A program made the translations under genes and the position numbers. From Deltaproteobacteria bacterium (GTDB lineage: Bacteria; Desulfobacterota; Deferrimicrobia; Deferrimicrobiales; Deferrimicrobiaceae), in assembly GCA_016218975.1 (NCBI GenBank), contig JACRCO010000093.1, positions 1 through 49,647 on the forward strand: a stretch of DNA of 49,647 nt, read 5' to 3'. Shown piece after piece: positions 35,337-45,587 of this stretch (its first letter is position 1; each line of letters begins with the position of its first letter). Below the pieces are notes generated by a model. The model was not told the origin of the DNA, ran no database searches, and was given only the letters and a program-made list of their open reading frames with translations.

Positions 35337-36229
35337 CGGATTTCGTACGTGATCGTGCTTTTCTGCCCCTGGCGGAGAATGTTGACGGTTACGCGCTTTT
35401 CATCCTTGAGGTTCTGGAAGATCGTGTACATCTTGTCGGGGGTGCTGAGCTCCACGTTGTTGATTTGCTGGATTACGTCCCCGTTTTTGAATCCCAGCTG
35501 TTCGAAGGCGGATCCCGGCCGAACCGCAGCGACACGGTAACCCGCGGACTTGTTCCCCTCGAAGAACGGGATCAGCCGGACGTTTGTCATGTACTGGTTG
35601 ATATTTCCGGTCAGTTGCCCCGCCGTGGCTTCATCGAGTGCGAACGAACTCTCGCCGAGCTTCGTGACGCGGATTTCCCCGCCCGCCGGAAGGTCGGCGG
35701 CCCTCGGAGCGCTTGCGGACGCGGCAGGCGCTGCAGGTGGCGCGGTGACGCGGGTCCTGGAGCCCACTGGAAGGATGTCCAGCCTCTCCTCGACTTTGCC
35801 GCGGGAGAGGAAGACGTGGTCCCTTTCGATGCGGGATAGCCTCACGCCTGCCTCCAGTTCGGCGCTTTCCCTTTCCATGCGGGGGGTCTTCATACCATCG
35901 GCCCAAAGGATGGCGCGCCGGGCGGACCTTGAGTCCGAGGCGACCGTGCCGAGGAGAACGTATTTCGTCGAGGGTAATTCCTGCGGTTTCGATTTCCCGA
36001 TCAGCCTGGAAGGAAGGTCCATCCCCTGGTCGGGGGCGAAAAGGTTTGTCCACTTCTCGGGGGACAGGGCCTGCGCGCCGGAGGGCTCCGCCGCCGCTCC
36101 GCGGGCGGGAGCGGCAGGGGCGGGAACCGAGTACCGGGCGGAAAGGAAACGGCTTGCGGAAAACCCGAGGGAAACCGCGGTTACGACGATGGACACTCCG
36201 ACAACAGCGAGAAACGCCCTCTTCTGCAT
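35333..36229 (-). CDS. gspC: Type II secretion inner-membrane protein GspC
   Basis: The 298-residue product has one N-terminal helix (AFLAVVGVSIVVTAVSLGF), a homology region (YVLLGTVASDSRSARRAIL) that contacts the secretin N0 domain, and a C-terminal PDZ domain (GYRVAAVRPGSAFEQLGF, GDVIQQINNVEL). It recruits substrates and bridges the two membranes. ATG 36229 is preferred as it starts the basic leader MQKRAF. ATG 36277 and 36247 are possible. It is the first gene of the gsp operon, so its promoter should lie in 36230-36565. Confidence 0.9.
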   Translation of the reverse strand: MQKRAFLAVVGVSIVVTAVSLGFSASRFLSARYSVPAPAAPARGAAAEPSGAQALSPEKWTNLFAPDQGMDLPSRLIGKSKPQELPSTKYVLLGTVASDSRSARRAILWADGMKTPRMERESAELEAGVRLSRIERDHVFLSRGKVEERLDILPVGSRTRVTAPPAAPAASASAPRAADLPAGGEIRVTKLGESSFALDEATAGQLTGNINQYMTNVRLIPFFEGNKSAGYRVAAVRPGSAFEQLGFKNGDVIQQINNVELSTPDKMYTIFQNLKDEKRVTVNILRQGQKSTITYEIR

Positions 36230-36565
36230 TCCGCCCCCGGCATGCATGTGTGAAACGATCAAACGATAGTCAACCATTCATTTTTTACCCTTTCGGGTAT
36301 CCAGTCAACTTACTTGAAGAATGTATCGGCGGAAATGCCTGATTTATTCGGTGTTCCCGCGAAATATTTCAATGCCCCGGTGAAACGCGGGCGGACCCCC
36401 GCATATTCAACATGAGCTGGGTTTCTAACGAGAAATTTTATCAAAAAAGCGGGGTGTACGGCGATACGAACTCCATCGCCGCCGAACGGTACGGAAATTC
36501 CTTTCCCTGCCGACCCGTCTATGTATACTGTATGCACATGGGGTGGTGCGGGACGGTGCGATAGA
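36230..36565. other. Divergent intergenic region between gspC and the haem-sensor kinase
   Basis: No gene is apparent. The stretch is AT-richer than the flanks and should carry divergent promoters. A TATACT near 36525-36530 could be a -10 box for the kinase gene but has no good -35 partner. A short ACCC-TTTC-GGGT hairpin at 36287-36298 has no T-tract on its 3' side in either direction that would make it a terminator. Confidence 0.4.
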
Positions 36566-38161
36566 ATGAGCTGGTATCACAGCATCAGCGTCAAGATCAT
36601 CCTGTGCGTCGTCGGGATGGTCCTGATCGTCAACGGCCTTTTGGCCTATCTGTCCCTCGTCATCCAGAAGGAAAACCTGAACGAAACGGTCCTCCGGAGC
36701 GCCTCGCAGCTAAGCGAGACGATCAAGAAGTCGATCAGGAACGACATGCTCGAAAACCGCAAGGACGCCGCATACAAGATCATGGAGACGATCGGCCAGC
36801 AGGAGGGGATCGAGAGGGTCCGGATCTACAGCAAGGAAGGGCGGATCCTCTTCTCAAGCGACAAGTACGAGATCGGCGGCATGGTCGACAAGCGGGCGGA
36901 AGCGTGCTACGGGTGCCATTCCGAGGCCCGTCCGCTGGAACGGCTGGCGACGTCAAAGAGGAACCGGATCTTCATGTCCGCGGACCACCGCGAGCGTTCC
37001 GACAAGGAGCACCGCGTGCTTGGCGTCATCAATCCCCTGTACAACGAAGCGGAGTGTTCCTCATCGACATGCCATGCGCACCCTCCGTCGAAGAAGGTCC
37101 TGGGCGTGATCGATGTCACCATGTCGCTCAGGGACGTAGATGTCGCGATGGCCCGCGACCGCGGCCGGATTCTCCTCGTCAGCGTGATTTCCATACTTTG
37201 CATCTCCCTCATCGTCGCGATGATCCTTATTCATTTCGTCGAGAGGCCGGTCAAGGACCTCGTCCTCGGCACGAAACGGATCTCCGACGGGGACCTCGAG
37301 CATTTCATCCCCGTGACGTCCAACGACGAGATGGGACACCTGGCCTTTTCGTTCAACCAGATGACACAGGATCTGGCGAAGGCGCGCGAGGAGATCGAGG
37401 AAGGTATCCGCAACCTGGAACACAAGGTCGAAGAGCGGACCACCGAACTAAAAGACGCGCAATCCCAGCTCCTGCAATCGGAAAAACTGGCGGCGGTCGG
37501 GAAGCTGGCGGCCACCGTAGCCCACGAGATCAACAACCCGCTGACCGGCGTCTACACTTACATACGGCTCATGGAGCGGAAAATCGCCCAGGGGCAGCAC
37601 GGCGAGGAGCATGTGGATAAGTACCGTTCCTACCTCGACACGATGCGCAGGGAGGTCGAGCGTACGACGGCGATCGTTCAGAACCTGCTGGACTTCACCA
37701 GGCCGAAAGAGCCGATCCGCAAGCCCCTGGATCTCGAAAAGATGGTGGGCGAATCGATGGTGCTCCTTCAGAATAAATTGCGCCTGAACAATATCGTCGT
37801 GGTGAACGAAATGAAGTCCCTGCCCGAGGTCCTGGCCGATCCGGGCCACATGAAGCAGGTTTTCATCAACCTGATGGTGAACGCCTGCGAGGCCATGGAG
37901 GGGGGCGGGACGCTGACGCTGGGCAGCTGCAGCAACGAGAAGGAGAACACGGCGACGATCTGGTTCCGCGACACCGGCGTGGGGATCGAAAAGGAGAACC
38001 TCGCGCATATCTTCGATCCTTTCTTCTCGACGAAGGAAAAGGGGACCGGGCTGGGGCTTTCGGTCGTAAGCGGTATTGTCGCCCGGCATAACGGCAAACT
38101 CGACATCGACAGCGCCCCGGGCAAGGGAACGTGCATCAGGGTTACGCTCCCCATTACGTAA
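36566..38161 (+). CDS. Sensor histidine kinase with two c-type haem motifs in its periplasmic domain
   Basis: The 531-residue kinase has a membrane helix (about 10-33), a periplasmic sensor (34-200), a second helix (202-225), HAMP, a coiled-coil, HisKA (phospho-histidine in ATVAHEINNPLTG) and HATPase (NLMVNACEAM, DTGVGI, GTGLGLSVV). The sensor contains CYGCH at 114-118 and CSSSTCH at 164-170, matching the CXXCH and CX4CH haem-attachment motifs. Sensors of this type occur in Geobacter and relatives, where they bind covalent haem. The input may be redox state or a gas. ATG 36566 gives a standard N-terminus. The partner is the regulator at 38730. Confidence 0.92.
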   Translation: MSWYHSISVKIILCVVGMVLIVNGLLAYLSLVIQKENLNETVLRSASQLSETIKKSIRNDMLENRKDAAYKIMETIGQQEGIERVRIYSKEGRILFSSDKYEIGGMVDKRAEACYGCHSEARPLERLATSKRNRIFMSADHRERSDKEHRVLGVINPLYNEAECSSSTCHAHPPSKKVLGVIDVTMSLRDVDVAMARDRGRILLVSVISILCISLIVAMILIHFVERPVKDLVLGTKRISDGDLEHFIPVTSNDEMGHLAFSFNQMTQDLAKAREEIEEGIRNLEHKVEERTTELKDAQSQLLQSEKLAAVGKLAATVAHEINNPLTGVYTYIRLMERKIAQGQHGEEHVDKYRSYLDTMRREVERTTAIVQNLLDFTRPKEPIRKPLDLEKMVGESMVLLQNKLRLNNIVVVNEMKSLPEVLADPGHMKQVFINLMVNACEAMEGGGTLTLGSCSNEKENTATIWFRDTGVGIEKENLAHIFDPFFSTKEKGTGLGLSVVSGIVARHNGKLDIDSAPGKGTCIRVTLPIT

Positions 38162-38727
38162 AGGGACCGGGGACCATCGGAAACATAATCTACATAAGGC
38201 CCGTCGGGGCGGTGGATCCTGGAATTCTCCAATGGCTGCGGCAAGAGATGAGCGAATCCCTCTGGGCGACGGTGCGGGTCATGCCTTCGATCCCGGTTCC
38301 ACCCGCAAGCTTCGAGCCGGCCAGGAACCAGTACATATCGACGAAAATCCTCAAGGAAATGCTGAAGGAGGTTCCCGAGAACGCGCTGAAACTGCTCGGG
38401 GTTACCGACAAGGACCTTTGCATACCGATCCTCACGTACGTTTTCGGGGAGGCGCAGCTCGGAGGGACGACGGCGGTCGTCTCGCTTGCCCGGTTGCGCC
38501 AGGAGTATTACGGCGCCCCGCCGGACCAGAAACTGTTCCAGGAACGGATGAGGAAGGAATGTCTCCACGAGCTCGGGCACACATTCGGACTGATCCACTG
38601 CACTTCGAAGGAGTGCGTCATGTACCTGTCGAACACGGTGGTTGACGTGGATACCAAGGGGCGGACGTTCTGCCGGGCCTGCCAGATGACGGTGGCTTCG
38701 AAAACGGGGGCTGGGAAGGAGGAATGA
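38131..38727 (+). CDS. amzA: Archaemetzincin-family zinc metalloprotease
   Basis: The 198-residue product carries the archaemetzincin signature HELGHTFGLIHC (H146, E147, H150 and H156 as zinc site and catalytic base), then C162, M164 (Met-turn) and a CRAC pair at 181-184, which together form the family's second, four-cysteine zinc site. No signal peptide is seen, so it should be cytosolic. The start is GTG 38131, overlapping the kinase by 31 bases. No later start precedes the conserved IIYIRPVG. Its position between kinase and regulator is striking. Substrate and role are unknown. Proteolysis linked to signalling is inference. Confidence 0.92.
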   Translation: MHQGYAPHYVKGPGTIGNIIYIRPVGAVDPGILQWLRQEMSESLWATVRVMPSIPVPPASFEPARNQYISTKILKEMLKEVPENALKLLGVTDKDLCIPILTYVFGEAQLGGTTAVVSLARLRQEYYGAPPDQKLFQERMRKECLHELGHTFGLIHCTSKECVMYLSNTVVDVDTKGRTFCRACQMTVASKTGAGKEE

Positions 38728-38729
38728 CG

Positions 38730-40094
38730 ATGGAAAAGAGCGTAAACATTCTGGTCGTGGACGACGAGGAAATCGTCCGGGACTCTTTGTCGAGCTGGCT
38801 CGAGGAGGACGGCTACGCCGTCGAGGCCGTCGAGAGCGGCAAACGGGCGTTGGAACGGCTTCCCGTCAAGAACTGGGACCTGATGCTCGTCGACCTGAAG
38901 ATGCCGGGCATGGACGGTATCCAGTTGATGGAGGAGGTGCGCAAAACCCACCCCGACATGCTGATCATCATCATGACCGCCTACGCCACGGTCGACACCG
39001 CCGTGAAGGCGATGAAAACGGGCGCCTACGACTATTTCGTCAAACCGTTCAACCCCGACGATATCTCCCTCACGATCCGCAAGATCGTGGACCATCACAA
39101 ACTCGTCCAGGAGAACCTGTTCCTGCGGAAGGAACTCAAAAAACAGTACAAGCTCCGGGACATGATCAGCAAGAACGAGAAGATGCTGGAGATCTTCGAG
39201 CTGGCGCGGACCGTCGCGAAGAGCAGCTCGACGGTCCTCATCCAGGGGGAAAGCGGAACGGGCAAGGAGCTTCTTGCGCGCGCTATCCACGACGAGAGCC
39301 CGCGCAGCGATTCGCCCTTCATCTCCGTGTCCTGCGTGTCCCTGACGGAAACACTGCTGGAAAGCGAATTGTTCGGCCACGAAAAGGGAGCGTTCACCGG
39401 CGCCACCGCGATCAAGCGGGGGAAACTGGAGCTTGCGCAGGACGGGACGCTCTTCCTGGACGAAATCGGCGACATCAGCCTGAAACTGCAAATGGACCTG
39501 CTCCGTGTGCTGGAGCAGAAGGACTTCCGGCGCGTCGGAGGATCCGACGTGATCGCGATCAACTCGCGAATCATCGCGGCGACGAACAGGGACCTGAAGG
39601 CCGCCATCGACGAGGACCGGTTCCGCGCGGACCTCTACTATCGGCTGAATGTCATTTCCATCCACATTCCCCCGCTGAGGGAACGGAGGGAAGACATACC
39701 GCTGCTGGTCGACCACTTCATTGAAAAATTCAACATCGAGATGGGGAAGCAGATCCGCGGCGTAAGCGAGGGAGCGATGCGGATCCTGATGGACAACGAA
39801 TGGCCCGGAAACGCGCGTGAACTGCGGAACGTTGTAGAGCGGGCAATGGTGGTGGCCAAGGGGAATATCATTACGGATTCCGATGTCAGCAGGCCGACCG
39901 CGACATCTACGCCAACAAACCACTGGACGAAATCCCTGGACGAGGTCGAGAAGGAGCACATTCGCGCGGTATTGGCGGAAAACCAGTGGAATATCGTGCG
40001 TTCCGCCCAGACATTGGGGATAGACCGGGTGACGCTCTACAACAAGATAAAAAAATATGAACTCAAGAGGGATGGCATCGCTCCGAAAGAGTGA
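38730..40094 (+). CDS. NtrC-family sigma-54-dependent response regulator
   Basis: The 454-residue product has a receiver (VVDDEE, phospho-acceptor D55 in MLVDLKMPGMDG), AAA+ domain (Walker A GESGTGKE, GAFTGA loop, Walker B GTLFLDEIGD) and Fis-type helix-turn-helix (NIVRSAQTLGIDRVTLYNKIK). ATG 38730 lies 7 bases after AAGGAGG. ATG 38724, two codons upstream, is too close to that site. It is the natural partner of the haem-sensor kinase. The two inverted repeats 5 and 25 bases after its stop, and the sigma-54 promoter at 40298, make the 40363-44824 operon its likely target. Confidence 0.95.
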   Translation: MEKSVNILVVDDEEIVRDSLSSWLEEDGYAVEAVESGKRALERLPVKNWDLMLVDLKMPGMDGIQLMEEVRKTHPDMLIIIMTAYATVDTAVKAMKTGAYDYFVKPFNPDDISLTIRKIVDHHKLVQENLFLRKELKKQYKLRDMISKNEKMLEIFELARTVAKSSSTVLIQGESGTGKELLARAIHDESPRSDSPFISVSCVSLTETLLESELFGHEKGAFTGATAIKRGKLELAQDGTLFLDEIGDISLKLQMDLLRVLEQKDFRRVGGSDVIAINSRIIAATNRDLKAAIDEDRFRADLYYRLNVISIHIPPLRERREDIPLLVDHFIEKFNIEMGKQIRGVSEGAMRILMDNEWPGNARELRNVVERAMVVAKGNIITDSDVSRPTATSTPTNHWTKSLDEVEKEHIRAVLAENQWNIVRSAQTLGIDRVTLYNKIKKYELKRDGIAPKE

Positions 40095-40098
40095 GAGT

Positions 40099-40133
40099 GT
40101 TGAGTATTTCAATTTGCTGTTGAATTTTTCAAC
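40099..40133. promoter_or_regulatory. Tandem inverted repeats, candidate enhancer sites for the sigma-54 regulator
   Basis: A perfect 6-3-6 palindrome, GTTGAA-TTT-TTCAAC (40119-40133), is preceded exactly 20 bases upstream by a matching copy, GTTGAG-TAT-TTCAAT (40099-40113). Two full helical turns place both sites on the same DNA face. They lie about 190-225 bases before the predicted start of transcription at 40324. Binding by the regulator encoded immediately upstream is inference. Confidence 0.6.
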
Positions 40134-40174
40134 TGGGCAAGCCACCGGAAAACAAGATCATTCCTTTTCGCCCC

Positions 40175-40204
40175 AGGAAGTGTAGAGAATGTATACACCT
40201 TCCT
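40175..40204. other. Imperfect hairpin between regulator gene and sigma-54 promoter
   Basis: AGGAAGTGTA (40175-40184) pairs with TACAC-C-TTCCT (40194-40204) apart from one bulged C, around a 9-base loop. No T-tract follows, so it is a weak terminator candidate. It could also be a protein site between the enhancer and the promoter. Confidence 0.3.
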
Positions 40205-40297
40205 GAAATTCAATAACCGCGTCTCTATTCGGAACACCCTCCTCCTTCTGTTTTAAAATCCGTAAGTTATCGACTTATAAAATGTCCTCCGATCGGT

Positions 40298-40312
40298 TGG
40301 CACGGGCATTGC
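40298..40312 (+). promoter_or_regulatory. Near-perfect sigma-54 promoter of the H-like/NrfD operon
   Basis: TGGCACG (40298-40304), four bases, TTGC (40309-40312) matches the sigma-54 consensus at every fixed position, with GG and GC correctly spaced by ten bases. Transcription should begin near 40324, 39 bases before the first small gene. Confidence 0.88.
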
Positions 40313-40362
40313 GCTATACATGGGCGCGGGAAAGGCAACCCCGCTGAAGGGAGGTGGGAACG

Positions 40363-40452
40363 ATGGGATTCATACTGATCGGCATAGCCTACATCGTTCT
40401 GGGTATCGTCTCGGCGGCGAGAATGATCGCGGAGCACGCGGGGCACGCGTGA
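40363..40452 (+). CDS. 29-residue membrane peptide leading the sigma-54 operon
   Basis: ATG 40363 follows GGGAGGTG with good spacing and encodes MGFILIGIAYIVLGIVSAAR followed by MIAEHAGHA, then TGA. A single hydrophobic helix of about 18 residues with a short, histidine-containing tail suggests a small membrane subunit, like those found with cytochrome bd or other respiratory complexes. Its place as first gene after the sigma-54 promoter and its ribosome binding site support translation. No homologue is known to me. Confidence 0.6.
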   Translation: MGFILIGIAYIVLGIVSAARMIAEHAGHA

Positions 40453-40512
40453 AAGGTGCGTTGACGCAGTGATCGTAAGCAGCGGAAAAGCTGGAAGAAA
40501 AGGGGTGCGGCG

Positions 40513-41223
40513 ATGAAGGAACGGAAGTGCCCTTTTCTCGAAACCCAAACGGTAACTTTCTGCAAGGCGTTCCCGGTGAAAATGATCCCGGTGGACAGGA
40601 TGTCGAATGCGAAGGGTATCTGTAATACGACCAATTACCAGGAATGTTCCCTCTATTGCGAGGTCAGCCACACCGGAAAGGACCTGGACAACATCCGCGG
40701 ATTCCAGCTGAAGCCGGAATACTACTATCATCCCAAACATCTTTGGGTCGCCGTGTCTCCTGACGACGAAACCGAAGCCCGCGTGGGAATCGACGATTTT
40801 TCGGCAAGGCTGATCGGCAGGATCCACCGCGTATCGTCTCCCGGCCCCAACATGCCGGTGAAGGAGAACAGCGTGTGCTTCCTCCTTCATTCCGGCGACC
40901 GGACCGTCCGCATGGTGGCGCCTGCTACCGGGACGATCAAGGCGGTCAATCCGAAAATAACGACCGACCCCGCCATTATCAATACCGATCCGTACAACGA
41001 GGGGTGGATCTATTCGATGAAGTTGCGGAACGAAGCGGTGAACGGCCTGTTCCACGAAAACGTCGCCAGGAAATGGATGGAATGCGAAGTCGAAAGGCTT
41101 CAGAAGCTGTTCGCGTCCGACTTGGGGATGACCGCAACCGACGGAGGCGAAGCCCTCACCGATATCAGCAGCCGGTTGAACGACGCGCAGTGGGGAAAGA
41201 TCGTCAGCCAGTTCTTGGGGTAA
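40513..41223 (+). CDS. Cysteine-rich N-terminal domain fused to an H-protein-like domain lacking lipoyl-lysine
   Basis: The 236-residue protein has five cysteines in its first 50 residues (C6, C17, C37, C45, C49), which could hold a metal or iron-sulphur cluster. A domain similar to glycine-cleavage H-protein follows (about 70-180: HPKHLWVAVSP, VGIDDFSARLIGRI, VAPATGTIKAVN, DPYNEGWIYSMKL). The segment that holds the lipoylated lysine in true H-protein is shortened (HSGDRTVRMVAP) and has no lysine, so lipoyl transfer is unlikely. No signal or membrane helix is seen, so it should be cytosolic. ATG 40513 follows AAGGGGTG. It is the first of three related genes in this operon. Confidence 0.85.
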   Translation: MKERKCPFLETQTVTFCKAFPVKMIPVDRMSNAKGICNTTNYQECSLYCEVSHTGKDLDNIRGFQLKPEYYYHPKHLWVAVSPDDETEARVGIDDFSARLIGRIHRVSSPGPNMPVKENSVCFLLHSGDRTVRMVAPATGTIKAVNPKITTDPAIINTDPYNEGWIYSMKLRNEAVNGLFHENVARKWMECEVERLQKLFASDLGMTATDGGEALTDISSRLNDAQWGKIVSQFLG

Positions 41224-41239
41224 TGCCGGGAGGTGCGCC

Positions 41240-41920
41240 ATGGTAGTCCTGCTCGTCCTGCTCACGGTTCTCTGCTTCATCACGGTGGAATTGGCCATCC
41301 GCTGGAGCAACAAGCGGCGGGCCGCGGAGTCCGGCATCCTGGATCCGGCCGCGCTGTTCCCTGCGTCCTTCCGGCCGGCTTACGAGATGCCCGGCGGGCT
41401 TTTCATCCACAACGGGCACACCTGGGCGAGGCTGGAAGCCTCCGGTGAGGTTAAGGTGGGCCTGGACGGGTTCGCCCGGGAAATCATCGGAAGGGTGGAC
41501 CGGTTCGAGCTTCCCGCGAAGGGGAAGCTGGTCCGGCAGGGAGAGCCGGCGTTCGCCGTCCTCCAGGACGGGAAGAGGATAGAGCTCGTGGCGCCCGTCG
41601 ACGGCGAGGTTTGCGCGGTGAACGAGATCCTGAACGCCGATGCGGTGGGGTCGATGGAAAGGCCGTACGAGAAAGGGTGGGCGTTCGCGATCCGTCCGAC
41701 GAACCTGGGCGCCAACATGAAAAAGCTCCGGGTCGGCGTGGAAGCCTCCGTATGGCTGGGCAAGGAAGTCCGGAGGTTCACCGAGTTTCTCACGCTCTAT
41801 CGGGCAGTTCCCCAGGAAGTCGGAGTCACGATGCCCGACGGAGGGGTGCACACCGAGGGAGTCATGGAGACCATGGACGGCGAGATCCTTCAGATCGCGG
41901 TCCGGAAGTTCTTCCGCTAA
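41240..41920 (+). CDS. Membrane-anchored H-protein-like protein (second copy)
   Basis: The 226-residue protein has an N-terminal helix (VVLLVLLTVLCFITVELAI) followed by an H-protein-like domain (HNGHTWARLEASGEVKVGLDGF; a spacer; GRVDRFELPAKGKLV; APVDGEVCAVNEIL; RPYEKGWAFAI). The lipoyl site region reads QDGKRIELVAP. By eye, arginine takes the modified-lysine position and two residues are missing. The positive RWSNKRR after the helix places the domain in the cytosol. ATG 41240 follows GGGAGGTG, 16 bases after the previous stop. Confidence 0.84.
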   Translation: MVVLLVLLTVLCFITVELAIRWSNKRRAAESGILDPAALFPASFRPAYEMPGGLFIHNGHTWARLEASGEVKVGLDGFAREIIGRVDRFELPAKGKLVRQGEPAFAVLQDGKRIELVAPVDGEVCAVNEILNADAVGSMERPYEKGWAFAIRPTNLGANMKKLRVGVEASVWLGKEVRRFTEFLTLYRAVPQEVGVTMPDGGVHTEGVMETMDGEILQIAVRKFFR

Positions 41921-41953
41921 GTCAAGACGGCAACCGACAGGAGGGATTGTTCA

Positions 41954-42868
41954 ATGACCATCACACGAAGAGGTTTCCTGAAGTTTGCGGGGCTGACCGG
42001 CAGCGCCTTGCTGGCTGCCGGCGCCAGGGCCCCCGCAAAAGCCGCCACGGCGGCGGCGGGTGCGGCGGCCGACAAGGAGTTTTTCGGCATGCTCGTCGAC
42101 ACGACGAAGTGCATCGGGTGCCGGAGCTGCGAGGAGGCGTGCAACGCCAGGAACCGCCTTCCGGAGCCGAAAGAATCCTTCTCGACCGACTCCGTGTTCG
42201 AGCGGCAACGGGACACGACCCCGGAGGCGTTCACCGTCGTGAACAGGTTCCCCAACGAGAAGGAGCCGGACAAGCCGGTCTTCGTCCGGAAGGAGTGCAA
42301 CCATTGCAACCAGCCGGCGTGCGCGACGGCCTGCCTGGTGAAGGCCCTGGAGAAGACGCCGGAAGGCCCGGTGATCTACAACAAGGACAGGTGCATGGGT
42401 TGCCGGTACTGCATGCTTTCATGCCCCTTCGACGCTCCGAAGTACCAGTACAACAGCCCCAGCCCGTACGTCATGAAGTGCGTCTTCTGCCACGACCGGA
42501 TCGTCAAGGGCGAGCAGCCGGCCTGTTCGGAGGCTTGTCCGGAGGGAGCGTCCCTGTTCGGGAAGCGGCGGGACCTTATCGAGATCGCGCGGGAACGGAT
42601 CTACAAGGAACCGGGCAAGTATTATCCGCACATCTACGGGGAGCACGAAGCGGGCGGCACGGAGTGGCTCTTCATCGGCAGCGCGGCCCCCGAGAAGCTT
42701 GGTCTGCGGGACCGGGAAAACGTGGGGACGAGCTCCTACCCGGAGAAGACCGCCGGTTTCCTGTACGCGGTTCCGCACATCTTCATCCTGTGGCCCACTT
42801 TTTTGTTCGGGCTTAGCTACCTGACGTCCCAGAAAAACGGGAAGGAGAACGAACATGGAGAGGAATAA
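41954..42868 (+). CDS. Tat-exported ferredoxin-type protein with four iron-sulphur clusters (HmcB/HybA-like)
   Basis: The 304-residue protein starts with a twin-arginine signal (TRRGFLKFAGLTGSALL). Four ferredoxin-type cysteine groups follow (CIGCRSCEEAC; CNHCNQPACATAC; CMGCRYCMLSC; CVFC...CSEAC), enough for four [4Fe-4S] clusters, as in the electron-transfer subunits of HybA, HmcB and DmsB type. A C-terminal helix (AVPHIFILWPTFLFGLSYL) would anchor it on the periplasmic side, as in HybA. Its 3' end overlaps the NrfD-like gene by 14 bases, so the two surely work together, passing electrons to or from quinone. Confidence 0.93.
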   Translation: MTITRRGFLKFAGLTGSALLAAGARAPAKAATAAAGAAADKEFFGMLVDTTKCIGCRSCEEACNARNRLPEPKESFSTDSVFERQRDTTPEAFTVVNRFPNEKEPDKPVFVRKECNHCNQPACATACLVKALEKTPEGPVIYNKDRCMGCRYCMLSCPFDAPKYQYNSPSPYVMKCVFCHDRIVKGEQPACSEACPEGASLFGKRRDLIEIARERIYKEPGKYYPHIYGEHEAGGTEWLFIGSAAPEKLGLRDRENVGTSSYPEKTAGFLYAVPHIFILWPTFLFGLSYLTSQKNGKENEHGEE

Positions 42869-44153
42869 CACGATCCCCTTGCATGCGGCAAAGTCCCCCA
42901 CGGGAGCGGACACCCTCAAGGGGTTCCTCCGGTTCGTTTTGAGCGAGCTGAAACCCAAGGGGAAGATCATTACGCCGTTCAACGTGATCAGCGGGATCAT
43001 CATCGCGGTGGGGTTGGCGCTGATCGTGATCCGGTTCGCCTTCGGGCTGGCTTCGGTTACGAACCTCTCCCAGGAATACCCCTGGGGGATCTGGATCGGG
43101 TTCGACGTCGTGACGGGGGTGGCATTCGCGGGCGGGGCCTACACGCTGTGTTTCGTTGTGCACATACTGAACTTCAAGAAGTACGAACCGATCCTGAAGG
43201 CCACGGTGCTGAACGGGTTCCTGGCGTACTGCTTCTATGCGGGCGCGCTCTTGCTGGACCTTGGGCGTCCGTGGAACGTGGTCAACCCGATCATCGGCAA
43301 TGCCTTCGGGTACAGCTCGGTGCTCTTCCTGGTGGCGTGGCACTTCCTTTTGTACACGGTCTGCCAGTTCGTCGAAGTGTTCCCGGCGGTGGCCGAGTGG
43401 CTTTACTGGCCGAAGGTGCGCAAGTACGCCAAACTTTGCACTACGGGCGCGGTGATCTTCGGCATAACGCTTTCGACCCTGCACCAGTCGGGGCTGGGCG
43501 CTCTGTTCCTGATGGCGTCCAACAAGATCCACCCGCTGTGGTACTCGGGGAACATCCCGATCCTGTTCTTCGTTTCGAGCGTATTCGCGGGGCTGTCCAT
43601 GGTGATCGCAGAGAGCACTATCAGCCACCGGGTCTTCCGGGACCAGATCGACCCGCACCACCATGCATCCTTCGACGACATCCTGATCGGGCTGGCAAAG
43701 GGGGCGTTGGGCGCGCTCTTCGCCTACTTCTTCCTCAAGGTGATCGACTTTGTTCACGGACATCAGTGGACGCAGCTCAACACCCCGATGGGGTACTGGT
43801 GGATGGTCGAGATGATCGGCGGGATCATAATCCCGATCGTCCTCTTCACTTACGCGATACTCAAGAACAACAGGAAGCTCGTGCAGGTCACCGCGGTCAT
43901 CACGGCGCTGGGCGTCATCCTGAACCGTCTGAACATCTCGGTGATCGCGTTCAAGTGGTATGCGGCGAACCGGTACTATCCCTCCTGGATGGAGATCTGG
44001 GTCACCGCCGCCGTCATCTGCATGGAGATATGGGCGTTCCGGTGGATAGTGGGCCGGATGCCGATCCTGCGAGAGCACCCGGACTTCCCGGAAGAAGAGC
44101 ATGCACATCCTGAAGAAGCGGAGGTCGTGAAATGGAAAGCTTCAGCTATGTAG
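42855..44153 (+). CDS. NrfD/HybB/HmcC-type membrane quinone-interacting protein
   Basis: The 432-residue protein has about ten membrane helices and the family entry SVTNLSQEYPWGIWIGFDVVTG (split in reading: TNLSQEYPWGIWIGFD), as in HybB and HmcC. Such proteins hold no cofactor themselves and exchange electrons between quinone and a periplasmic iron-sulphur partner, here the preceding gene. ATG 42855 follows AAGGAG and overlaps the previous gene. The C-terminus is a soluble tail rich in Glu and His. No hydrogenase, molybdenum enzyme or multihaem cytochrome gene lies beside it. Confidence 0.92.
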   Translation: MERNNTIPLHAAKSPTGADTLKGFLRFVLSELKPKGKIITPFNVISGIIIAVGLALIVIRFAFGLASVTNLSQEYPWGIWIGFDVVTGVAFAGGAYTLCFVVHILNFKKYEPILKATVLNGFLAYCFYAGALLLDLGRPWNVVNPIIGNAFGYSSVLFLVAWHFLLYTVCQFVEVFPAVAEWLYWPKVRKYAKLCTTGAVIFGITLSTLHQSGLGALFLMASNKIHPLWYSGNIPILFFVSSVFAGLSMVIAESTISHRVFRDQIDPHHHASFDDILIGLAKGALGALFAYFFLKVIDFVHGHQWTQLNTPMGYWWMVEMIGGIIIPIVLFTYAILKNNRKLVQVTAVITALGVILNRLNISVIAFKWYAANRYYPSWMEIWVTAAVICMEIWAFRWIVGRMPILREHPDFPEEEHAHPEEAEVVKWKASAM

Positions 44154-44824
44154 ACATCTTCGCGACGAAAGGCATCGAGTACATCATAGTCATGGCGTTC
44201 CTCGGCGGCTTCATATACTTCTCCCGCTATCTTGCGCACAGGGGGAAGGAGGCAGCGGCGGAGGGAAGGAACCTGGGCGTGATCGACTACTTCCGCGTCC
44301 CCGACGGGTACCTGTTCCACCAGGGGCACGGCTGGCTCCGCACCGAGCCCGGTTCCGTCGCCATCGTCGGGATGGACGACTTCGCGCAGAAGCTGATCGG
44401 CAAGGTGGATTCCATCGAGCTGCCCGAAGTCGGTTTCCGCCTCTCGCAGGGAGAGCCCGGCTGGAGCCTGATCTCCGAGTCCCGCCGTGTCCCGATGCTG
44501 TCTCCGGTGGAAGGCGTCGTCGTGGCCGTGAACCACGATGTCCTTCGTTCTCCCGACCTCCTGAAGCAGGACCCGTACGGAAGAGGGTGGCTGTTCCGGG
44601 TGCGCGCCGGGAAGTTGTCCAGGGATTCGAGCAACCTCCTTTCCGGAAAGCTTGCAAGGTCATGGATGAAGAACGCGCTGGACAGGCTGCAGCCGGCATC
44701 GACAGAAAACATCGGTCCCGTCCTGGCGGACGGCGGTACCCCCATCGAGGGGATCGCCAAGGCGTTCGGCGGAGAACGGTGGGATGAACTTGCAAGGAAG
44801 CACCTGCTGACGAACGGCGAATAA
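44132..44824 (+). CDS. Membrane-anchored H-protein-like protein (third copy)
   Basis: The 230-residue protein has an N-terminal helix (YIIVMAFLGGFIYFSRYL) and the H-protein-like domain closest to true H-protein: HQGHGWLRTE, VGMDDFAQKLIGKVDSIELP, EVGFRLSQGEPG, SPVEGVVVAVNHDVL, DPYGRGWLFRV. The lipoyl site reads ESRRVPMLSP where true H-protein has ESVKAVSDLYSP, so arginine replaces the lysine and two residues are lost. It overlaps the NrfD-like gene by 22 bases and ends the operon. Three copies with the same loss argue for a structural role. Confidence 0.86.
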   Translation: MESFSYVDIFATKGIEYIIVMAFLGGFIYFSRYLAHRGKEAAAEGRNLGVIDYFRVPDGYLFHQGHGWLRTEPGSVAIVGMDDFAQKLIGKVDSIELPEVGFRLSQGEPGWSLISESRRVPMLSPVEGVVVAVNHDVLRSPDLLKQDPYGRGWLFRVRAGKLSRDSSNLLSGKLARSWMKNALDRLQPASTENIGPVLADGGTPIEGIAKAFGGERWDELARKHLLTNGE

Positions 44825-44833
44825 AGTTGGGGT

Positions 44834-44874
44834 GGGCCTGGAACCGCGGGTTGCCGCCGGCGGGATCCAGGCCC
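44834..44874. terminator. Strong hairpin after the H-like/NrfD operon
   Basis: GGGCCTGGA (44834-44842) pairs with TCCAGGCCC (44866-44874). Inside, CCGC (44844-44847) can pair with GCGG (44860-44863). It starts 10 bases after the operon stop and lies before a convergent gene. There is no T-tract, so it may act as a Rho-assisted end or as mRNA protection. Confidence 0.45.
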
Positions 44875-44906
44875 ATGCTCCTCCGTCATCCGACGGGATC
44901 GGGCTT

Positions 44907-45587
44907 CTATCCGGCAGGCGGAATGAGTTCCGGCACGCCGGATCGGCGAAAAGGTTTCAAACGCATGGACAGGCCGAATAACATCAGCGTCTCTCCCAGC
45001 ATTTCCAGCCCTTCCTCGAAAAATATTTCCATCTGCTTCATCTTGGGCAACTGCGGCATATAGATTCCGATCGCCTCGGAAGCCATCCCTCCGAGCACGA
45101 AAACCGCGGCTCCGGCGACGAACAAGTTCCGGCCTTCCGGAATTTCCAGGAATACGACGATCTCTTTTCTGAATAACAGGACCAGCAAAAGAGCTGCGAG
45201 AAGGTACACCAGGATCCAGATCCCCCTCAAATCGATTAACCCGTGGCGCCTCAACAGGAGCCCCAGGGTTCTCCCGACCGATTCGTGGATCTCAGCGGTT
45301 TCGTCGAGGGAAAAAAACAGGAAGACGGCCGCCAACAGGCGATAGCCCCGGCGCAGTGCCTTGCTTTCGGCGCCCCGGGCACAGGCAAAGGAGATGAGAA
45401 ACACGAGGAAAAGCTGCATCGTGGAGAACCAGGTGGGGATGTTGTATTCCTGGTCCAGATCGAAAAGGTGCTTCACTCTCCAGGACGGAGATTGAAATAT
45501 CACGTTGGTGACGAGGTACATGGCCAACAGCAGCAGGTTGGTCGCAAGCAGGATTTTGAGAAGGTTTTTCCGGTCGGATGGATCCAC
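44907..45587 (-). CDS. Hypothetical multi-pass membrane protein
   Basis: The start at GTG 45587 gives 226 residues (VDPSDRKNLLKILLATNLLL); GAGGTGG lies 5 bases upstream, and a promoter at 45633-45662 would start transcription near 45626. Upstream ATG 45752 is in frame but lies before that promoter. About six membrane helices are seen, with FLFFSLDETAEIHESVG between two of them and LGGMASEAIGIY near the end. The acidic loop (LDETAEIHE) resembles metal-binding motifs of alkaline ceramidase-like or other uncharacterised integral membrane families, but the match is not firm. Function unknown. Confidence 0.75.
   Translation of the reverse strand: MDPSDRKNLLKILLATNLLLLAMYLVTNVIFQSPSWRVKHLFDLDQEYNIPTWFSTMQLFLVFLISFACARGAESKALRRGYRLLAAVFLFFSLDETAEIHESVGRTLGLLLRRHGLIDLRGIWILVYLLAALLLVLLFRKEIVVFLEIPEGRNLFVAGAAVFVLGGMASEAIGIYMPQLPKMKQMEIFFEEGLEMLGETLMLFGLSMRLKPFRRSGVPELIPPAG

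Follow-up and report, generated by a model that had tools for sequence, protein, structure and literature searches.

The window, i.e. the whole stretch of 49,647 nucleotides analysed here, raises the question of whether the DNA target of a two-component regulator, and the genes that it controls, can be read from the sequence that follows the regulator gene. A first-pass annotation had reported twin palindromes and a TGGCACG-N4-TTGC promoter after this gene, a description that proved correct to the base. Indeed, the stop codon of the regulator is found at 40092-40094 and a first enhancer site, S1 (GTTGAGTATTTCAAT, 40099-40113, unstranded), starts 5 bases later. The second site, S2 (GTTGAATTTTTCAAC, 40119-40133, unstranded), is a conserved 15-bp palindrome with perfect 6-bp arms, and the distance from the start of S1 to the start of S2 is exactly 20 bp. 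The annotation had placed the near copy "exactly two helical turns" upstream; the 20-bp spacing stands but 20 bp represent about 1.9 turns. Likewise, it had written the consensus as GTTGAN(A/G)-N3-TTCAA: the palindrome holds, GTWGA-N5-TCWAC being the better form of the motif. A third and weaker site, S3 (GTAGAGAATGTATAC, 40182-40196, unstranded), lies 63 bp after S2; it is degenerate in the window, and its consensus in relatives is GTAGAGAATCTCTAC. On the + strand, a sigma-54 -24/-12 promoter (TTGGCACG-GGCA-TTGC, that is TTGGCACGGGCATTGC) occupies 40297-40312 with a predicted start at ~40324. Its TGG at 40298, where TGGCACG-N4-TTGC is matched with no mismatch, stands 179 bp from the start of S2, the gap between site and promoter being 164 bases. 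The third site, the fixed distance and the second target described below were absent from the first-pass annotation.

Specificity of the motif within the genome

By pattern search, S2 is the sole exact match to GTTGAANNNTTCAAC in the 2.95 Mb draft genome. The twin-site pattern was scanned over the whole genome, including the sigma-54-like matches left out of the locus comparison, and it occurs with 0 mismatches only in the window and with 2 mismatches only at position 94542 of contig C71 (C71:94542), while the reversed control pattern gave 0 matches in the whole-genome scan. Other sites in the genome, with 1 mismatch to the palindrome or 3 to the twin pattern, are mostly without a good downstream sigma-54 promoter; the best promoter score behind such palindrome-like sites is 16.0 (locus L066) and the others are at most 15. 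Furthermore, among 30 fetched sigma-54-like loci (18 further listed matches left out), paired sites were observed only at the window. A match to PF04552 (204.5 bits, contig C80) shows that sigma-54 itself is encoded in the genome.

A near-perfect palindrome, ATTGAAAAATTCAAC, is also present at 39720-39734 within the coding sequence of the regulator; as a regulatory site it was set aside, since it is probably dictated by the protein sequence. No RNA families were found in 36000-45000. A possible site for the bend protein IHF between S3 and the promoter was assessed by visual inspection alone, and we make no claim for it.

Genes surrounding the control region

All genes described here lie on the + strand. 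The regulator (38724..40094), predicted to bind the palindromes, belongs to the NtrC family by Pfam and alignment and consists of a receiver domain with D57, a sigma-54 AAA+ domain carrying GAFTGA and a Fis-type HTH; the solved structures nearest to its profile, 4l4u and 1ny5, are of NtrC-family proteins. Upstream is found a sensor histidine kinase of HAMP-HisKA-HATPase architecture (36521..38161, Pfam), which neighbours the regulator in nearly all loci and is likely its partner kinase. Its periplasmic region displays two c-type heme motifs, CYGCH (CX2CH) and the unusual CSSSTCH (CX4CH). Of 20 kinases inspected, that of the window among them, 19 carry both motifs and one carries a single motif; the kinase is likely a diheme sensor. 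Between the two genes lies a conserved archaemetzincin-family metalloprotease gene (38131..38727, Pfam/NCBIfam), the true start of which may be slightly downstream.

The first gene after the promoter is a small ORF (40363..40452) with a ribosome-binding site, encoding a 29-aa hydrophobic peptide. Similar short peptides (M-x-Y-[IL]-x-L-[GA]-I-x-Y-L-V...) occupy the corresponding position in most related operons, and the peptide is possibly a small subunit of a membrane complex. The first large target gene (40513..41223; Pfam, alignment) encodes a GcvH-like protein in which four N-terminal cysteines (C6, C17, C37 and C45) are invariant in the alignment, a possible iron-sulfur site. It is followed by four genes that are conserved in the operon: a GcvH-like protein with an N-terminal membrane segment (41240..41920; Pfam, sequence), an HmcB/HybA-like 4Fe-4S protein (41954..42868) and an HmcC/HybB-like membrane protein of the NrfD family (42855..44153), both by Pfam and NCBIfam, and another GcvH-like protein with an N-terminal membrane segment (44132..44824; Pfam, sequence). 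By eye, the GcvH-like proteins of the operon appear to have lost the lipoyl-lysine position.

The window very probably contains a control region through which the adjacent 38724 regulator activates a two-component, sigma-54-dependent operon. The diheme membrane kinase (36521) would phosphorylate the NtrC-family regulator (38724), presumably upon a redox signal, and dimers of the latter would occupy S1 and S2 cooperatively as well as the weaker S3. Once bound, the regulator would assemble into an ATPase ring and, by DNA looping, would be brought to the sigma-54 polymerase at 40297-40312 and activate it. Transcription is expected to start near 40324, and the predicted transcript would encode the short membrane peptide, the GcvH-like proteins and the HmcB/HmcC-like electron-transfer pair. 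The lone GcvH-like gene found on contig C71 would also be driven by the 38724 regulator.

Conservation and geometry of the control region in relatives

In order to compare the control region among relatives, 99 of them were searched and longer stretches around the matches were then examined. In most genomes of the family the gene order is kinase, protease, regulator, control region, gcvH-like, gcvH-like, hmcB, nrfD and gcvH-like. Besides the window, the comparison set comprises 19 further operons, from one bacterial family and one other family, and the second, unlinked gene of the window genome. These 21 control regions were aligned on the promoter, S2 and S3 being placed by match and S1 being fixed at -20. 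With S1 20 bp upstream, S2 stands at 177-182 bp from the TGG (sd 1.4) and S3 lies 63-64 bp after S2 in most of the regions; the distance from the promoter to the first large gene spans 50-241 bp (sd 42). In terms of helical turns, the 63-64 bp represent 6.0 turns, and the enhancer-promoter distance can be given as 179 +/- 2 bp. The -24/-12 promoter is kept in nearly all loci. The mean match of S1 gives z = 18.9 against shuffles over the 21 regions, an unbiased value as S1 was not placed by match, whereas the score of S2 is biased by the choice of its positions. Mean pairwise identity is 63-71% in the sites compared to 32-38%, near random, in the spacers, S1 (63%) being the only unbiased comparison. 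Common ancestry links the family loci, which therefore do not count as independent. The S1 sites are poor in two family members, L046 and L048.

A combined search for paired sites and a sigma-54 promoter over 610 kb of related loci returned 16 modules, all of them at these gene clusters or at the second target, while neither the reversed sequence nor any of 20 shuffles gave a module in the same search. One draft genome, G001 (JAENIX010000139/201), holds two copies of the operon, L004 and L034; its public record is labelled Actinomycetota though it is of the genus of the window, and this label looks wrong.

Textbook sigma-54 enhancers work over a variable distance. It is conceivable, though we regard it as rather unlikely, that S1-S3 assemble with the promoter into a stereospecific nucleoprotein complex in which the distances are set; function would demand that geometry, which would explain why it is kept at unlinked promoters with unrelated spacers. 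The near constancy of the enhancer-promoter distance may have a functional cause, or it may come from common ancestry together with a constrained length. A distance that varies so little makes this system a natural case in which to ask whether sigma-54 enhancers really tolerate changes of position in their native context.

Second target and modules apart from the regulator gene

At C71:94542 (L033), S1, S2 and S3 are observed together with TTGGCACGAACGATGC at the same 20 and 179 bp spacings as in the window, although the spacers of the two loci are unrelated (26-33% identity). This module precedes a lone gene for a GcvH-like membrane protein (L033 9716-10378). The gene stands where a nif-type cluster ends, beside homocitrate-synthase-like/nifV-like and nifB-like genes as named from their translations; this position suggests a connection to nitrogen fixation, unless it is due to chance. 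The module is also found away from the regulator gene elsewhere. Both L047 and L051 keep the sites with the gcvH-like operon even though the regulator gene has moved away from it. In G003, a draft genome of the same genus (97% complete), the module precedes gcvB-/gcvC-like genes, and no regulator ortholog was found there at E<=1e-120; its absence could be due to a gap in the draft.

Recognition helix and alternative explanations

The recognition helix of the window regulator is IDRVTLYNKI. Beyond the family, in loci with regulator orthologs of ~50-64% identity, near-consensus palindromes are found 22-23 bp apart before sigma-54 promoters (L157, L159 and L166), in the same gene clusters as the orthologs, and looser versions of the palindrome occur in L156 and L160. 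Since the geometry differs in these other families, the motif predates the fixed spacing. The helix IDR[V/A/T/G]TLY[N/A]KI is common to the regulators that have the motif, while the motif is absent or weak beside the helices ISRLTLYNKI, INRTTLHHKI, LNRTTLHAKI, INRSTLYEKI, IDRSTLSRKM and VNRVTLHKMI, a covariation of helix and motif that spans a few lineages only.

These data bear on the identity of the protein that binds the sites. The genome is rich in NtrC-type regulators (88 first-look candidates) and the module persists in G003, where no ortholog of the regulator was detected, as would be the case if this were a true sigma-54 control region bound by another enhancer-binding protein of the genome. 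We consider this improbable, given that in other families the motif is found in the regulator's own gene cluster and tracks its recognition helix; moreover, the C76 paralog, 48% identical, carries a different helix, ISLRTLQYRI. Palindromes of this kind, with a length of 15 bp and a spacing of one helical turn between 5-bp half-sites, are a typical feature of repressor operators as well, and those found here might be bound by a repressor or another DNA-binding protein unrelated to sigma-54 activation. This is very improbable, since the sites keep a constant distance from the -24 element, 180-200 bp upstream of it and clear of the promoter, a -24/-12 element follows wherever they recur in related loci, and no other regulator gene is consistently adjacent.

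The position of the repeats directly after the regulator stop codon, where small hairpins are possible, would also suit a transcription terminator of the regulator gene with an accidental resemblance to an enhancer. However, no terminator-like site was detected there, RNA folding is no better than that of shuffles (z 0.01), and the same array occurs in L033, L047, L051 and L153 with no regulator gene preceding it. The presence of the sites at unlinked promoters refutes this explanation, and we attach a negligible probability to it. Activation by the adjacent regulator is the explanation we retain. The NtrC-type enhancer and promoter layout that the first-pass annotation had proposed is supported by the domains of the regulator, the encoded sigma-54 and the conservation with fixed spacing in ~20 genomes, and further by its recurrence at a second gene and by its co-occurrence, in other families, with the regulator and its recognition helix. 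The annotation had also held that motif and target could be read from the sequence; the comparative loci bear this out, and we would predict with good confidence both the regulator's DNA target and the respiratory genes under its control.

Comparison with known systems

Like modules of the NtrC/AtoC/ZraR group, the system has a receiver-AAA+-Fis HTH regulator beside a kinase gene and a target operon, and like NtrC-type modules it has paired palindromic upstream sites and a -24/-12 promoter. It differs from them by the motif GTWGA-N5-TCWAC, the third site and the near-invariant 179-bp distance within the family. The regulator is below the equivalog cut-offs for AtoC (481.8 vs 714), NtrC (421.7 vs 558.6) and ZraR (408.9 vs 760). 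The general type of module is thus already known, and the fixed enhancer-promoter geometry is its sole unusual feature.

The text of a comparative genomics study of Desulfovibrio vulgaris (PMC4641369) describes many small sigma-54 regulons of one to four operons, with regulators co-localised with their own sigma-54 promoters, some of which serve electron-transfer complexes, e.g. Ohc. As described there, these regulons resemble the present system in their small size and in the co-localisation of regulator and promoter. In the passages compared, neither this motif nor a diheme kinase nor a GcvH-like/HmcBC operon is described. In the literature, we found no description of an archaemetzincin-linked two-component system, of a heme-c kinase with NtrC, or of GcvH-like proteins with NrfD/HmcB.

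Regarding the target operon, the HmcB-like iron-sulfur and HmcC-like NrfD proteins recall complexes of the Hmc/HybAB type, with NCBIfam scores below the equivalog cut-offs for both HmcB (344.6 bits vs 420) and HmcC (399.3 vs 550). Unlike Hmc, the operon is without a high-molecular-mass cytochrome and adds three GcvH-like proteins and the short membrane peptide. A motif, a recognition helix and a small regulon can now be assigned to a previously uncharacterised heme-linked two-component system, and this diheme-sensor system is tied to a conserved GcvH-like and HmcBC-like cluster in uncultured relatives of Deltaproteobacteria. The archaemetzincin-family protease gene adjoins kinase and regulator genes in many families.
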